Origin: an uncultured Sphingorhabdus sp.
GTDB taxonomy: Bacteria; Pseudomonadota; Alphaproteobacteria; Sphingomonadales; Sphingomonadaceae
DNA: 33,698 bases
Direction: 5' to 3'
Assembly: GCA_937944295.1 (NCBI GenBank)
Contig: CALDZL010000067.1
Coordinates: 1-33,698, forward strand
Position 1 is the stretch's first letter; every line of letters starts with the position of its first letter. Shown piece after piece: positions 7,894 to 16,115 of this stretch. The notes under the pieces were generated by a model that did not search any database, had not been told where the DNA came from, and saw only the letters and a list, made by a program, of their open reading frames with translations. A program made the translations under genes and the position numbers.

Positions 7894-10365
7894 TTAATGG
7901 CGCAAGCGCTCAATTGCCTGTGCTAGAGCCACATATAATTTGCCCACGTCGGATGATAATATTGTAACGCCTATAGCATTACCATCACGGGTACTAAGTA
8001 AAACCCGCATCATAGCCTCAAAATCATGGATATAGCGATTTACATGGTCGCGAAACTCCATATTTTCATCATAATGGGAAACGATTAACTTGGCTTCACT
8101 TGCTGTTAATAATTTAACGGCACGGCGAGTAAATACACCTCTATCACCTTTAAGATAGGCCGCCCAAGCTGTATCTGTAACATCGTTAGATATAATCTTA
8201 GCAACATCAATTGCAGTAGAATTAAGCGATTCAGTCAGTAGCGCCATTTGGCGAGAAAAACTCTCTTCACCCACATTGGAAAATCCGACGGAATTATCTT
8301 CGAGACGTTTTTCTAAATTATCGGTCATTTCTTCGATAACTGATAATTGCGATTGCAATTTGGCCACATTTTCGCTGGCCGCTTTGACATGTATATCAAG
8401 CGATATTTGCAGATTATTCTCAATGGCGGCGACTTGTTTGTCGATAGTCTCTTGAATGATGGTTGAACCATTTTCGGCTATTCTTTGGGAACTAAAATCT
8501 ATTTTTTCGCTTATAGCTTCTCTGGAAAATTCTAGGCTTTCGGATATTTGATTGTTCACATTCTTAATCTGTTCAGCGAAGATACCATTTGCGCTATTGC
8601 TAATCTCTTCCAATGCGGCTTTGCTTTCCTGAAGGGTTGATAAAATTTTGTTGATTTTATCATTGTTCAAATCGGCCTCATTATTTTGCTTTTCTAATAG
8701 GGCTTCTATCTGATCTTTAGAGGCGGATAATTGCTTTTCTATAGCACTATTTTTCTTGTTAACTTTATCACTATGCTCTGATAATTTTTTGATGTTAGAG
8801 AATGTGGATTTGAAACGGGCTTCGACCAAATCAAATGTTTCATCTAATCTTTTGACAGAGGCTGGTATGGTTTCATCTAATTCACGCGAACTAGTATCTA
8901 GGGCTAATAATAATTTTTCAGAGCGCTCTATCAATAGTTCTGCCTGCGCATGATTATTTGATAGGCCTTGTTCAACGCTGTCGCTATTTTCTCTAAGAGC
9001 AGTCATAGCAAAAGCCATCTTAGCCGTTTGTGCAGATGCTTTGTCGCTAATGACATCAATTTTCTCTTGGCTCTTATCAATATGCTCTCGAATTTTAGCT
9101 ATCATATCATTGATATGATTATCTTCCATATGGTTGCTATCAATCAAGTCTTGCAGAGCAAGCGAGAGTCTCTCAACATTTTGATGGAGATTATCGGCAA
9201 TTTCCTGACTTTGCGTGTCGAGTTTATTACTTGTCTCACTGATGGCAAGATCAAATTCATTATATTCTGATTTTATTGTTGCAGCAATCTCTCTAATCTC
9301 ATTTTTGGTTTTGTCTGACATTGCTTCACTAAAAGCTTGGAGTTCTTTTGTTTGCGTTAAAATATCATTTGAGACTAATTTATTTTGTAGTGATAATTTT
9401 TCTAATTCTTGAAGATTAAGAGTGCTTGCTTCATTACTATCTTTCAGCGCAAGTTCCAAAGAACGCACTTGCGCAATGGCTTCCATTCCAGTTTTTCCGA
9501 TTAAATTGGTTGCATCTTTAGCCGCACTGTTAACAACGGGAAGTTTCCTGCTTAATAATTCTAAATTTTTGTGCGTTGATTCACTGACTTTCTCTAAAAT
9601 ATCTGCTTTTTGAGTACTGTTATTGAGGGCATATTCAATTTTTTGCGAAGCATTAACAATATTCTCAGCGGTATGCCGACCAATATGTTCAAGGTCTTGG
9701 CTATATTGAGAGAGAAAATCTCTTGCTAAGGCAATTTCTTGATTAACTTCACGGACCTTATCTTCAACATTTTGCGCCTCAATACGAAGGCTGTTTGAAA
9801 CATCTCCAAAGCGCAATGCCTCTGCTGTGCTATTACGCATGAATAAGAGCCAGCTTAGTGCGATTAGGATTATCGGTGTTGCCCAGTTAATAATAAGCGA
9901 TGAGATTTGCTGAAAAGTGATAGCAGGCGTTAAAATATTGAGATTTGAGATTATAAAAAAAGCGCTCCAAGCGAGTGCGACAGAAATAAAGAAAATGGGT
10001 ATGAAATAAGCTGTTAATGATCTGGATGTATTTTGGTTATAAGTTTCATCATAAACCCATTCATTCTCAGTATTTTGATTTGTGTCATAATCTGTTTCAG
10101 AGCCATCACTATTAGAAAGCTGATTGTCAATTAAACTATCATCCACAGCGTTTAAATTATAATTTTTATCTAAAGAAACAGCTTTCTGTGGTGTGTAAGC
10201 CATAAAATTTTCTCCATTATTATAAGAGAGAAAATCTATACCTTTACGATAAATGGGTTTCTCTTTATTATAAGAAGGTGCTGATTTATCAGAAAAAAGA
10301 TAATCCTCTGTACCATTTTCAATGGATGTTGGTTTCTTAATATTATGTTTCTTTACCCCAGTCAT
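7894..10365 (-). CDS. Large membrane-anchored coiled-coil protein of unknown function; alternative start at 10203
   Basis: Two TM segments (AYFIPIFFISVALAWSAFFIISNL and WATPIILIALSWLLFM), about 500 aa of heptad-rich helix, then a compact C-terminal domain (DTAWAAYLKGDRGVFTRRAVKLL...DHVNRYIHDFEAMMRVLLSTRDGNAIGVTILSSDVGKLYVALAQAIERLRH). Confidence 0.85.
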   Translation of the reverse strand: MTGVKKHNIKKPTSIENGTEDYLFSDKSAPSYNKEKPIYRKGIDFLSYNNGENFMAYTPQKAVSLDKNYNLNAVDDSLIDNQLSNSDGSETDYDTNQNTENEWVYDETYNQNTSRSLTAYFIPIFFISVALAWSAFFIISNLNILTPAITFQQISSLIINWATPIILIALSWLLFMRNSTAEALRFGDVSNSLRIEAQNVEDKVREVNQEIALARDFLSQYSQDLEHIGRHTAENIVNASQKIEYALNNSTQKADILEKVSESTHKNLELLSRKLPVVNSAAKDATNLIGKTGMEAIAQVRSLELALKDSNEASTLNLQELEKLSLQNKLVSNDILTQTKELQAFSEAMSDKTKNEIREIAATIKSEYNEFDLAISETSNKLDTQSQEIADNLHQNVERLSLALQDLIDSNHMEDNHINDMIAKIREHIDKSQEKIDVISDKASAQTAKMAFAMTALRENSDSVEQGLSNNHAQAELLIERSEKLLLALDTSSRELDETIPASVKRLDETFDLVEARFKSTFSNIKKLSEHSDKVNKKNSAIEKQLSASKDQIEALLEKQNNEADLNNDKINKILSTLQESKAALEEISNSANGIFAEQIKNVNNQISESLEFSREAISEKIDFSSQRIAENGSTIIQETIDKQVAAIENNLQISLDIHVKAASENVAKLQSQLSVIEEMTDNLEKRLEDNSVGFSNVGEESFSRQMALLTESLNSTAIDVAKIISNDVTDTAWAAYLKGDRGVFTRRAVKLLTASEAKLIVSHYDENMEFRDHVNRYIHDFEAMMRVLLSTRDGNAIGVTILSSDVGKLYVALAQAIERLRH

Positions 10366-10433: not shown

Positions 10434-10736
10434 ATGTCCGCTGATTATGGTTCCTTTGCAACAGCTATTAAAGAAGCTGCAGGTGATGATATTGTACTAA
10501 TGTCAGAGCTTCGTATAGCTTTTTTTGATAGTGCTGATCGTCAACTTGATCTTTTAAGTCGTTCACGTTGTGATGCCAATTGGCAATATTCAGCGTGGAG
10601 GCTGCAAAGTTTAGCGGCAAGCTTTGGTGTAGAAGATATTAAAAATTTAGCGCATGCAGCCGTTGTAGGTGCACCAGGTGATCCTGTTGTGCTTCGGGAA
10701 TTGGGTGCAGCTATTGAAAAAATTAGAGACTGCTGA
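10434..10736 (+). CDS. Hpt-like four-helix protein with the phospho-acceptor His replaced by Trp
   Basis: DANWQYSAWRLQSLAASFGVEDI aligns by eye with the Hpt motif AAHxLKGxAxxxGA; W55 sits at the His position. Confidence 0.7.
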   Translation: MSADYGSFATAIKEAAGDDIVLMSELRIAFFDSADRQLDLLSRSRCDANWQYSAWRLQSLAASFGVEDIKNLAHAAVVGAPGDPVVLRELGAAIEKIRDC

Positions 10737-10856: not shown

Positions 10857-12047
10857 TTGGTTAGCATAGCTCTGTTAATGATCGAACAATCTCATAACAA
10901 AATCGCTACAGAGCAGATTAAAGTAGCAGGGGAACCTCTATTATATCACCAAATCGTTCAGCTTCGTAATTTTGGGATTAGCCGTTTCATAATAGCTGTA
11001 GAAAAAATCGATTCAATGACGCTGCAAATAGCTACAAACCTGCGCAGCGAAGGGATAGAAGTTGAATTTATAAGCCGCTTAGATGCTTTAGGTGATATAT
11101 TAGCAAGCGATGATTCATTTTTGATGATCTCTGATGGCGTATTGAGTAGCGATAAGCATATTGAAAATATGATGAATGCGCTTTCTTCTGAAATATTGGT
11201 GTTTGAGAATGATGATAAATTATCACGATTTGAATTAATTGATTTGAATTATCGATGGAGTGGCTTGGCAAGGTTAACAGGTGATATATTATCTTCTATT
11301 GAAAACCTGCCTGAAGATTCTGCCATTCAATCCACTTTATTGCGTATAGCACTACAACAAGACTGTATGTTAAAAGTCATAGAATCTGTGCCATCATCAT
11401 TGATAAGAATTACGGAACGATCTGCTGCCAAAAGTCTAAGCGAAGCTAAGATAAAATCTTCTCTTAAAGCTATCAATTTGCGAGGTTTCTGTGAAACTAT
11501 ATTATTCTACCCACTCATTCGTTTTTTATTACTCTATTTGTGGAGAGGTGGACAGTTTTCACTCTTGAATAAATATACCATAAATTATGGCTATCTTTTA
11601 TTTTTTGCTATAGCTATTATTTTCGCAATATTAGGATTTAGCATCGCTTCTTATATATTGGCAATTATAGCTTATTTTTGTTGCTGTTTTAGAAAAATCC
11701 AAAATAATTTAAAACCTAATGCAGATATTAAATCTGTGCAAATAATTAGCGATGTAAGTATATTCCTCATATTGATAGTAACAGTTCATACCAAAGATAA
11801 CCTTTGGAGCGTTAGTGGTGCCATTATAATATTTTTATTAGGATATTCTGCCCAAAGATTAAGTTTTGAGATAAATTATAATCGCTTTATTTTCTCATTT
11901 TGCGATATATTCTGCCTTATGGTTTTGGCTCTAATATTCGACATACAATCCTATGCAATAATAATAATATCTATATTATATGCTTTGTGGATATTTGGTG
12001 GAACAATCCTGTTGAACTCTCAGATTAGTGATAATTTAAAAAAATAA
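10857..12047 (+). CDS. Membrane protein with a degenerate nucleotidyltransferase-like N-terminus and a polytopic C-terminus resembling a degenerate CDP-alcohol phosphotransferase (TTG start)
   Basis: IKVAGEPLLYHQIVQLRNFGISRFIIAVE resembles NTP-transferase beta-alpha-beta; several TM helices after about residue 215; no GxGxR loop and no DGxxAR...D...D motif. Confidence 0.65.
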   Translation: MVSIALLMIEQSHNKIATEQIKVAGEPLLYHQIVQLRNFGISRFIIAVEKIDSMTLQIATNLRSEGIEVEFISRLDALGDILASDDSFLMISDGVLSSDKHIENMMNALSSEILVFENDDKLSRFELIDLNYRWSGLARLTGDILSSIENLPEDSAIQSTLLRIALQQDCMLKVIESVPSSLIRITERSAAKSLSEAKIKSSLKAINLRGFCETILFYPLIRFLLLYLWRGGQFSLLNKYTINYGYLLFFAIAIIFAILGFSIASYILAIIAYFCCCFRKIQNNLKPNADIKSVQIISDVSIFLILIVTVHTKDNLWSVSGAIIIFLLGYSAQRLSFEINYNRFIFSFCDIFCLMVLALIFDIQSYAIIIISILYALWIFGGTILLNSQISDNLKK

Positions 12048-12134: not shown

Positions 12135-13118
12135 GTGTCTCAGGATTTTGAGCAAATATCATTTATGGAAAATGCGATGCAATGTGCGCGCAGTCTTACG
12201 GCTGCGCGGCGCAGTTTGCCTTATCTTATTTTCCCAGTAAATAGCTTCCCTATCGATGAATATTTATTATCGAATATAAAAAACAGTCTTTATAAAATTA
12301 TATATAATATTGAATGCTCAATTTTACAGCATGCAGAGATGTATAATAAAATTTCAGATAAGTCCCAAGCCTATCCCATATTGATGGAATCTGGTTTGAT
12401 GAATGATCCTGTTATTTTAGATGAACTTTTATCAATTTTTCGATTACAGAATCTAATATCGAGCAGTGATAGTGGTGAACATATTGCGGATAATTGGCGT
12501 AATGAGGCCAATGTGAGCAGATTTTCAGGTGATATTAAAGAGTGTTTAAATACTTTATCATTGGGTTTGAGCCGCGCTAAATCATTTGAGCTTGGTAATT
12601 TTTATGAACTTTCACCTGAAAATCTGCATCTAATAACATGGCGTATTTTAGCAACATTTGAGATTATTGATGGGGCAATTGATCCCAAATTAATGGATGC
12701 CACCCAAGATTGGTTGAATTGTTATAATGAAGCCGAGACAATAATGGCCTCTTCAGGTAAATTAATGTATTTACTACGCAATAACCCTAATTTAGAAATA
12801 GAATCTTTTTGGCGATACCGACATATAAATGCACCATTATTTATTGCATTATTAGAGTATAAAACATCGCTTAATAGATCTATGATTTTGGCTGTTTTGA
12901 CGGATAGATCACCGCTTCTATGCGCTTTATTATTTAGAGCTGTTGATATGGATAAAAATATAGCATTAGAAAATTTATCTATCATATTTAAAAAACAAAA
13001 GATTATGAGTAGTAATATATTTGTACAGATATCTGATGAATATCTATCGGTAGAACCCAAGATTGCATTACAAAATTTACATGAATGGTCAGATATAATG
13101 AGGTTGAAAAGTGGATAA
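12135..13118 (+). CDS. Predicted all-helical protein of unknown function (GTG start)
   Basis: Long ORF overlapping the next gene by 8 bp; helical composition, no recognised motif. Confidence 0.75.
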   Translation: MSQDFEQISFMENAMQCARSLTAARRSLPYLIFPVNSFPIDEYLLSNIKNSLYKIIYNIECSILQHAEMYNKISDKSQAYPILMESGLMNDPVILDELLSIFRLQNLISSSDSGEHIADNWRNEANVSRFSGDIKECLNTLSLGLSRAKSFELGNFYELSPENLHLITWRILATFEIIDGAIDPKLMDATQDWLNCYNEAETIMASSGKLMYLLRNNPNLEIESFWRYRHINAPLFIALLEYKTSLNRSMILAVLTDRSPLLCALLFRAVDMDKNIALENLSIIFKKQKIMSSNIFVQISDEYLSVEPKIALQNLHEWSDIMRLKSG

Positions 13119-14490
13119 TATCTCCGATGATATGATCATAGCTCATGTTGATGCAGATGGAAAATTGCTTTTTGCAGACCCTGCGTTGCGAAGGTTGCAC
13201 ATCCAAGCAGGCGGAAGCGATAATGGTAAATTTGCCATAGCGGCATTAGCGCGGATAGCGCAATTGACGCATAAATTAAAATTACCATTATCAAGAATGG
13301 TCCAAGTTGCAGATGATGGTTTTGATATTTCATTATGGGTTGATAGCCATTTAGAAGATAATATAGCCATATTATCGATATTAAATTGGAATGAAAAAGA
13401 GATCAGAGGATCTAAGGTTTCTGAAGAAGATGCATTACTATTTAATGATTTAGGTGAAGATATATTATTCTTAACAGATGATAATAGCGATATAATCTCA
13501 TTTCAGACTGGCAAGCGTAACGTGGAAAAATTCAGTAATTTTCTGGGTAAAAATATTTTCGATATATTGGATATCAATGACGATATACACGCAAATATTG
13601 AACAGACATTTGAGAGTAAAGATGAAATTGAAAGTATCATTATCAATTTGAATCAATATTTGGAACCTTATGACTTTTCAGCGATTACAAGGCTTAATGA
13701 TAAAGATGAGTTTTTAGGTTATGAATGTTATTTGAGCCCAATTACCAATGAATTTAAATCTAATGAAATTAATGAATCTGATAAAGATGATGTATCAGAA
13801 ATAAATATTGATGATATTTATCAAAATATGGTGGCGTCTCAATTAGCACCAGCAATTCGCCAGCCATTGGGTCGAATAATTGCGAATGCCGACACAATAG
13901 GCAGTAAATTAAACGGACCAATCAGAGAGAATTATGCCAATTATGCTAGAGATATTGCACGTGCTGCTCGTCATTTGGTAGAGATAATTGACGATCTTGG
14001 TGATTTGCAGGCAATTGAAAGACCAGATTTTAATATCGCCAAAGATGATATAGAATTGCATGATGTTGCTGACCGATTGGCGGGACTTTTAGCCCTAAAG
14101 GCTAATGAAAAGTCTATTGAGATTATTACGCCAGATAAGAATGATATGATCCATGCTGTTGGTGAGTTTAGGCGCGTGTTACAAATTGGACTTAATTTAT
14201 TGACCAATGCGATCCGATATTCGCCAAATGGGATAAGCGTTAGGATTATTGTTGGTTACGATAATGATATGGCATTTTTATCGGTACAGGATGAAGGTCC
14301 TGGTATTGATAAGCAACAGCAAGAAAAAATATTTGAAAAATTTGAAAGGCTGGGTCGAACTGGCGATGGAGGAAGTGGTTTGGGTCTATATATTTCAAAC
14401 CGCCTTGCAATAGCCATGGGTGGCAGCCTCAATATTGAGAGTGATATTGGTAAGGGGGCCTGTTTCACGCTTCATTTGCCTAAAAAATAA
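13111..14490 (+). CDS. PAS-like sensor histidine-kinase-type protein lacking the H-box histidine (GTG start)
   Basis: C-terminal HATPase: NLLTNAIRYSPNG (N), DEGPGID (G1), FEKFERLG (F), GGSGLGLYISNRLAIAMGG (G2). DHp segment reads LAPAIRQPLGRIIANADTI with no His. Confidence 0.9.
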   Translation: MDNISDDMIIAHVDADGKLLFADPALRRLHIQAGGSDNGKFAIAALARIAQLTHKLKLPLSRMVQVADDGFDISLWVDSHLEDNIAILSILNWNEKEIRGSKVSEEDALLFNDLGEDILFLTDDNSDIISFQTGKRNVEKFSNFLGKNIFDILDINDDIHANIEQTFESKDEIESIIINLNQYLEPYDFSAITRLNDKDEFLGYECYLSPITNEFKSNEINESDKDDVSEINIDDIYQNMVASQLAPAIRQPLGRIIANADTIGSKLNGPIRENYANYARDIARAARHLVEIIDDLGDLQAIERPDFNIAKDDIELHDVADRLAGLLALKANEKSIEIITPDKNDMIHAVGEFRRVLQIGLNLLTNAIRYSPNGISVRIIVGYDNDMAFLSVQDEGPGIDKQQQEKIFEKFERLGRTGDGGSGLGLYISNRLAIAMGGSLNIESDIGKGACFTLHLPKK

Positions 14491-14526: not shown

Positions 14527-15813
14527 TTAACGGTTTTCAACAGGAATATAATCGCGCTGTTCTGGCCCTGTGTAAAGTTGGCGGGGGCGTCCAATTTTTT
14601 GACCAGGATCAGAAATCATCTCATTCCATTGTGCTACCCAACCCACGGTGCGTGCTAATGCAAATAATACTGTGAACATTTCGGTCGGAAAGCCAATTGC
14701 TGATAATATGATACCTGAATAGAAATCAACGTTGGGATAGAGTTTTTTCTCTACAAAATAAGGGTCATTAAGAGCGATTTGTTCTAACTCGCGTGCCACG
14801 TCAAAAATAGGGTCAGTTACGCCCAATTTGGTCAATACTTCGTCTGCCGTTTTTTGCATAACGGTTGCGCGTGGATCATAATTTTTATAAACACGGTGAC
14901 CAAAGCCCATTAGACGGAATGGATCATTTTTATCTTTTGCACGCGCAATATATTCTGGAATACGGTCAACCGTACCAATTTCGCGCAGCATATTAAGGGC
15001 TGCTTCATTAGCCCCGCCATGCGCAGGACCCCATAAACAAGCAATTCCAGCAGCTATACATGCAAATGGGTTAGCGCCTGAGGATCCAGCCAAACGCACG
15101 GTAGATGTTGAAGCATTTTGCTCATGATCTGCATGTAATATAAAGATACGATCCATAGCGCGTTCAATAACGGGATCTACTTTATAGTCTTCTGCGGGAA
15201 CTCCAAATGTCATACGCAAGAAATTACCAGGATATGAGAGGCTATTATCTGGATAAACAAAGGGCTGTCCTATAGAATATTTATAGGCCATAGCCGCAAT
15301 AGTTGGCATTTTTGCAATTAAGCGATGACTTGAAATTTTACGATGTTCTGGATCATTAATATCTGTACTGTCGTGATAAAATGCACTTAGTGCACCAACA
15401 ACGCCGCACATAATAGCCATAGGGTGCGCATCACGGCGAAATCCGCTAAAGAATTTTGCTAATTGTTCGTGCAGCATTGTATGATTTGTGATGGTTGCTT
15501 TAAAAGTCTCTAACTCATTTTTGTTTGGTAATTCTCCATTAAGCAACAAATAAGATGTTTCCATGAAAGTAGAGTGTTCGGCTAATTGGCCGATAGGATA
15601 GCCGCCATGCAGCAATATACCCTTTCCCCCATCAATGAATGTAAGATCGGATTCACAACTAGCTGTTGAGGTGAAGCCTGGATCAAATGTGAAATTATCG
15701 GTTTGTGCGTATAATTTTCTTATATCTATAACATCTGGGCCAGTTGTAGCTTTTAGCACGGGAAATTCATAGTCTTTACCGCTTACTGATATTTTAGCTG
15801 TTTCATTCGACAT
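14527..15813 (-). CDS. gltA: Citrate synthase (ORF track start 15846; ATG at 15813 more plausible)
   Basis: [21 protein letters not shown] start; [47 protein letters not shown] and [15 protein letters not shown] motifs. Confidence 0.97.
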
Positions 15814-16115
15814 ACATAATCTCCAGATTGGCGAGAGATGTATCACTCTCGCAAATGTTAATTCAAAATTTAAGTCCCATCAGGGCGATATTCACCAATT
15901 TTTTTGCTGCATTTCAATCATGAAATGGCTGCATCACTATTTTTATATCTATGATTTATATACCCATCATTTACGATATACTCTTGGGGAAGATCATCAT
16001 TTGATGCAGATTGGACATGGAAGAATTTGATCATAAGGTCAAGATAAAACATAATGTTAGAGGGTAATTATTGCTATGATTTATGGAGAAATGATAGATA
16101 GCGGGCCTTGGTTTT

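Follow-up and report, generated by a model that had tools for sequence, protein, structure and literature searches.

A conserved pseudo-histidine kinase of the Sphingomonadaceae keeps its ATP site and lies beside an HPt-fold protein that has lost its own histidine

Why should a sensor kinase keep its ATP-binding site when the histidine that would receive the phosphate has gone? The question is raised by an ORF at positions 13111..14490 (forward strand) of a 33,698-nucleotide stretch of DNA from an uncultured Sphingorhabdus sp., the whole of which was analysed and is called the window here. The ORF starts with GTG and encodes a protein of 459 amino acids with the layout PAS - PAS - DHp - CA/GHKL, as defined by Pfam, AlphaFold, a fold search and comparison of orthologues. 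We refer to this protein, whose DHp has no phospho-histidine, as pHK (pseudo-histidine kinase). Pseudo-histidine kinases are already known as a kind. They are few and have mostly been studied singly.

An earlier note, made from the sequence alone, had placed a proline (Pro247) at the phospho-His position, and alignment bears this out. Pro247 (codon CCA, 13849..13851) lies within LAPAIRQPLGRI, and in the alignment each column of this segment pairs with one of MSHELRTPLNAI in canonical kinases from the same order; the degenerate H-box reads LAPAIRQPL. With the HMM comparison that the note had proposed as a check, Pfam HisKA scores 25.2 bits against a cut-off of 26.9, and its match begins only at residue 248, just past Pro247, while HATPase_c matches clearly (3e-25, 89 bits, residues 354-458). 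The N, G1, F and G2 boxes, which had looked intact by eye, are so: N362/N366, D394-G398, F408 and G420-G425 are all present in the CA (ATP-binding) domain (residues 312-458; 14044..14484, + strand; Pfam, conservation and AlphaFold). The H-E/D-x-x-N/T phosphatase motif of active HisKA kinases is absent.

The AlphaFold model of pHK (57 aligned orthologues as input; mean pLDDT 87.5) contains a DHp hairpin, the CA domain and two PAS-like domains. The PAS-like region noticed earlier is therefore present as a fold, but as two domains rather than one: residues ~9-97 (13135..13401, + strand), recognised by AlphaFold topology and undetected by Pfam, and residues ~118-210 (13462..13740, + strand), also recognised by topology and passing the Pfam PAS_4 cut-off in one His-bearing orthologue. 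DHp helix 1 (residues 233-265; 13807..13905, + strand; alignment and AlphaFold) runs straight through Pro247, and helix 2 covers residues 273-303. A fold search with pHK returned histidine kinases, with a NifL-NifA entry ranking second. The first PAS-like domain contains what looks like a second H-box, LTHKLKLPLSRM (residues 52-63), but this candidate was rejected as it is unconserved among orthologues.

A survey of 301 Sphingomonadaceae genomes (E <= 1e-45) found a pHK orthologue in 223, one per genome. The assignment to this family rests on a scan of named records, which gave 80 pHK loci from Sphingomonas, Sphingobium, Novosphingobium, Sphingopyxis, Erythrobacter, Qipengyuania, Blastomonas and others. 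In 123 aligned orthologues of the main clade the acceptor column contains P (87), R (10), G (8), K (7), N (3), S (3), Q (2), L, T and E, and His in none, a result that disposes of a sequencing error or an isolated mutation at Pro247. From the alignment, the conserved trait is the absence of His at the acceptor site, the replacement residue being apparently free to vary. None of the 123 has a substitution at N362, N366, D394, G396, G398 or F408, and G421, G423 and G425 are kept in 122 (with a gap in the other). In HisKA kinases the residues at H+1 (Glu) and H+4 (Thr/Asn) confer phosphatase activity; here H+1 is Ala or Val in 119/123 and Glu or Asp in none, and H+4 is Gln in 91/123. These counts indicate that the acceptor and phosphatase residues were lost while the ATP site was retained. 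With a kinase fold, a clade-wide loss of the acceptor and purifying selection (see below), pHK is, as judged from its sequence, a true pseudo-histidine kinase, and we predict that it lacks autokinase activity.

The gene order around pHK is conserved in the genus: a divergent gene for a coiled-coil membrane protein, then an HPt-like, a nucleotidyltransferase-like and a DUF2336-like gene, pHK, the convergent gltA, comEC and lexA. No canonical kinase gene is found in this conserved cluster. The divergent gene (7894..10365, - strand; identified by synteny) encodes 823 amino acids: N-terminal membrane segments are followed by an extended coiled coil, and the last ~120 amino acids or so form a conserved domain. 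The gene adjoins the HPt gene across the order, outgroups included; we take its product to resemble polarity or coiled-coil scaffold proteins, being TipN-like in layout. The product of 10857..12047 (+ strand), a conserved cluster member recognised from weak NCBIfam matches and synteny, has a nucleotidyltransferase-like N-terminus and a hydrophobic C-terminus, and is weakly similar to inositol-1-phosphate cytidylyltransferase/CDP-alcohol transferase fusions. In the vicinity of the corresponding locus of genus G127 (L258) we noted by eye an inositol-phosphate synthase-like protein and a second nucleotidyltransferase-like protein. Immediately upstream of pHK, the ORF at 12135..13118 (+ strand) encodes a diverged DUF2336 protein of 327 amino acids. 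On its own it has no Pfam match; a profile of its orthologues matches genuine DUF2336 proteins at 4e-41, whose own scores against Pfam DUF2336 are 223 and 213 bits. Its end overlaps the start of pHK by 8 bp, so that the two genes are probably translationally coupled. The gltA gene (citrate synthase; 14527..15846, - strand; Pfam and synteny) serves as a flanking syntenic landmark.

The HPt-like gene (10434..10736, + strand) encodes 100 amino acids with Trp55 (codon 10596-10598) at the phospho-His position, within SAWRLQSLAASFG. Orthologues read A-x-RLKGLAASF (AxRLKGLAxSF) against the HPt signature AxH(K/R)LKGxAxxxGA, the His being replaced. The site in 59 crown orthologues (an alignment of 60 rows, from which the spurious row L120 was discounted) is occupied by M (33), L (10), W (5), E (4), S (3), A (2), Q, Y or F and never by His, nor does His occur there in 44 sequences from two genome surveys whose taxa overlap with those of the 59. 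AlphaFold predicts a five-helix bundle (pLDDT 93), and the top Foldseek matches of this model are all HPt proteins, including ShpA of Caulobacter (probability ~1, TM up to 0.74, E-values above 0.04). The protein thus shares the helical-bundle fold of known HPt proteins (ShpA, AHP1; PF01627) but differs from them in having Trp, or mostly Met or Leu in its orthologues, instead of the phosphorylatable His of HxxKG. The Pfam Hpt score of the window protein is sub-threshold (12.6 bits against a cut-off of 24.6), and its identity is therefore drawn from its fold and its syntenic His-bearing homologues. Canonical AxHKLKG HPts, picked up with a profile of the HPt-like family, stand beside the same coiled-coil gene in deep Sphingomonadaceae as well as in other families of the order; an HPt from these other families reaches 39 bits against Pfam Hpt. 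The strongest support for an HPt identity is positional: His-bearing HPts occupy the same locus.

The earlier note had held that orthologues with a canonical His would count against its reading. Such orthologues exist, but only in deep branches of the Sphingomonadaceae; as they represent the ancestral state, they strengthen the case for a pseudokinase. In these branches the locus contains canonical SHELRTPL kinases and AxHRLKG HPts. Full-length His-bearing pHK orthologues are present in the deep genera G048, G082, G094 and G098. The kinase of G094 and of G048 is immediately preceded by a DUF2336 gene, and a receiver/HPt cluster lies 6-10 kb away. G127 and G053 are intermediate: their gene order is that of the crown, the kinase standing between the DUF2336 gene and gltA, yet this kinase still has SHELRTPL; the HPt of G127 also keeps its His, in AAHRLKG. 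The kinases of G094, G048, G127 and G053 are homologous to pHK over their full length, including the PAS region, and differ from it in having SHELRTPL and in passing the Pfam HisKA cut-off where scanned (61.9-63.7 bits for the His-bearing kinases). They are predicted to be active kinases. In G094 (L231, 7324-13352) the kinase/DUF2336 pair is separated from the HPt2 and receiver genes by a flagellin gene, flgK, metA and a wzi-like gene, and the placement of flagellin and flgK may point to an ancestral connection with motility.

Both deep Sphingomonadaceae and other families of the order have a receiver protein after the HPt, and a second HPt after that. Among 96 sampled genera the receiver was found in only four (G048, G082, G094 and G098), and no match to its gene was obtained in G127, G053 or the sampled genomes of the His-less clade. 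All nine receiver sequences of the ancestral cluster (L202 6885-7442, L199 8197-8751, L203, L204, L206, L207, L212, L213 and L214) have Asn at the position of CheY Asp57 (SNWDM, SNWQM or SNWEM), which suggests that the phosphate chemistry of the receiver was eroded before the kinase and HPt lost their His. The kinase tree separates all His-less from all His-bearing sequences (support 100/97), with G127 and G053 nearest on the His-bearing side, and the trees support a history in which the kinase lost its acceptor and phosphatase residues once only, in the stem lineage of the main Sphingomonadaceae clade. Three genomes of the ancestral group (G082, G098 and G127) yielded both proteins with certainty, and in each of them both have the His; in every crown locus with both proteins, neither has. 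A mixture of the two states was seen in no genome examined. The simplest history would be that the receiver was lost first, followed by a single loss of the kinase acceptor and the HPt His.

All 58 genera with a crown-type HPt-like protein also have the kinase (this count and the next are uncorrected for relatedness). Of the 18 genera without a kinase match, none has the crown-type protein; one of them, G045, has a His-bearing HPt. In ~13 genera pHK is present and the HPt-like protein undetected, and in some genera, such as G084 and G133, the two genes are unlinked. The HPt-like protein is therefore unlikely to be the obligate sole partner of pHK, and the ~13 kinase-only genera weaken the idea that it is an obligate partner. 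Several small-genome species of the window's genus have no pHK orthologue, and the kinase is thus dispensable there. Two further cases in this genus may be mentioned: G233 has kept the HPt-like gene together with a short C-terminal remnant of pHK (L200, 11303-11431), and the pHK of G023 (L016) lacks part of the DHp and is interrupted by an in-frame stop.

Kinase-like proteins of similar design have been described. The earlier note was reminded of DivL, which is found in Caulobacter and other Alphaproteobacteria and resembles pHK in its PAS domains, its His-less DHp and its retained CA fold; DivL regulates by protein contact (PMC4211667). The resemblance in the DHp holds, but pHK is not DivL. 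DivL has a conserved functional Tyr, more PAS domains and a different lineage, whereas pHK has a variable residue (Tyr in 0/123 orthologues), two PAS-like domains and an HPt that has decayed in parallel. In addition, the window's genome encodes a separate multi-PAS protein (L153) with the DivL signature MSYELRTPL, which does not group with pHK in a tree that represented DivL by this L153 protein. NifL (Azotobacter, Klebsiella) shares the PAS-PAS-H-GHKL order with pHK; its GHKL domain binds ADP and it acts as a non-phosphorylating anti-activator (PMC8219145). NifL, however, pairs with the activator NifA; the window ORFs that were scanned include no NifA-like gene, and nothing indicates that NifL and pHK are orthologous. 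The ChrS pseudokinase of Corynebacterium glutamicum is likewise a kinase-dead histidine kinase, and has a positive function, but it arose in the laboratory by a frameshift in the CA domain and so lost the opposite half (PMC9491836). The logic proposed for pHK is like that of DivL or NifL, and pHK is orthologous to neither. Each element of this logic, set out below, has a precedent in these two proteins (PMC4211667, PMC8219145).

Taken as a whole, we think it probable that a phosphorelay has here been turned into a phosphate-free and probably nucleotide-gated protein-interaction module, for which we infer ATP binding, a partner and the direction of signalling. An allosteric or ATP-sensing role, as suggested in the earlier note, is supported by the loss of the acceptor from a protein with an intact CA domain. 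On this reading pHK descends from a canonical PAS-PAS-HisKA-HATPase kinase that stood at this locus and lost its acceptor and phosphatase residues, and its former phosphorelay neighbour, the HPt, is His-less too in the main clade. The CA domain would still bind ATP or ADP; PAS input and nucleotide occupancy would set the conformation of the DHp dimer; and the output would be a protein-protein contact, with no phosphotransfer. Candidate partners are the HPt-fold protein and/or the DUF2336-like protein, or a canonical kinase or receiver encoded elsewhere. A more specific version is put forward only tentatively: that both phospho-histidines were lost in a matched way after loss of the receiver, that ATP/ADP occupancy gates the binding of pHK to the HPt-fold protein and to partners, and that this arrangement became fixed in most Sphingomonadaceae genera.

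The best rival is that pHK acts in trans as half a kinase, forming a heterodimer with a canonical kinase whose His is phosphorylated by the pHK CA domain. Heterodimers of a pseudokinase and a kinase are known (ChrS-HrrS, PMC9491836), the genome has canonical kinases as well, and the ATP-binding residues are invariant although a protein serving as a scaffold alone could, strictly, do without them. We nevertheless regard this as unlikely, as the conserved cluster holds no canonical kinase and, in a non-exhaustive comparison, none of the canonical kinases stood out as co-varying with pHK. That the GHKL fold has been retained for its shape only, with no ATP bound, seems less probable again: DivL functions despite poor ATP binding (57 uM for TNP-ATP, with a CA domain that looks similarly good; PMC4211667), and by this precedent the pHK CA domain may bind ATP only weakly in spite of its appearance, but the strict conservation of Asp394 and the Gly boxes is hard to explain by shape alone.

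The remaining two explanations fare worse. The cluster could be the relic of a dead phosphorelay, slowly disappearing and with no present function, given the loss of the receiver gene, of the His of the HPt and of the HisKA motif, and given that in some species of the genus the kinase is absent, reduced to a remnant or interrupted by an in-frame stop. Measured against a 74%-identical relative, however, dN/dS is 0.10 for pHK, and 0.08 and 0.13 for the HPt-like and DUF2336-like genes, respectively (gltA, 0.03), ratios that are approximate as synonymous distances exceed 1. The His-less kinase and HPt-like genes are under purifying selection, and pHK was accordingly rejected as a pseudogene. A single intact copy is present in about three-quarters of genera, and the sampled genera all share the same ATP-site residues, in contrast to an acceptor position that is free to drift. 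A decaying relic is in our view distinctly improbable. Least probable of all, and very much so, is phosphorylation of another residue, which the earlier note had also raised, naming an 'H280-like' His in ARHLVEI. The residue concerned is H288 (13972..13974, + strand), the only conserved His of the DHp, kept in 119/123 orthologues. It lies on helix 2, is Leu in the other four, and is found equally in most canonical kinases of the order (GRHLL) and in the His-bearing pHK orthologues; it is a structural residue, and on these grounds was rejected as a substitute acceptor.

What is new is a pseudokinase that extends across a family, with a parallel loss in an HPt and with the ancestral and derived states both extant at one locus. 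The literature that we searched, which was incomplete, contained no earlier report of this pseudokinase family or of DUF2336 in association with histidine kinases. Automatic annotation would label pHK a sensor histidine kinase, which is impossible in the usual sense. The active ancestral and inactive derived forms in living genera provide a natural experiment on the path from a phosphorelay to allosteric protein interaction, and the long-standing question of why pseudokinases retain an ATP site is made directly testable here.
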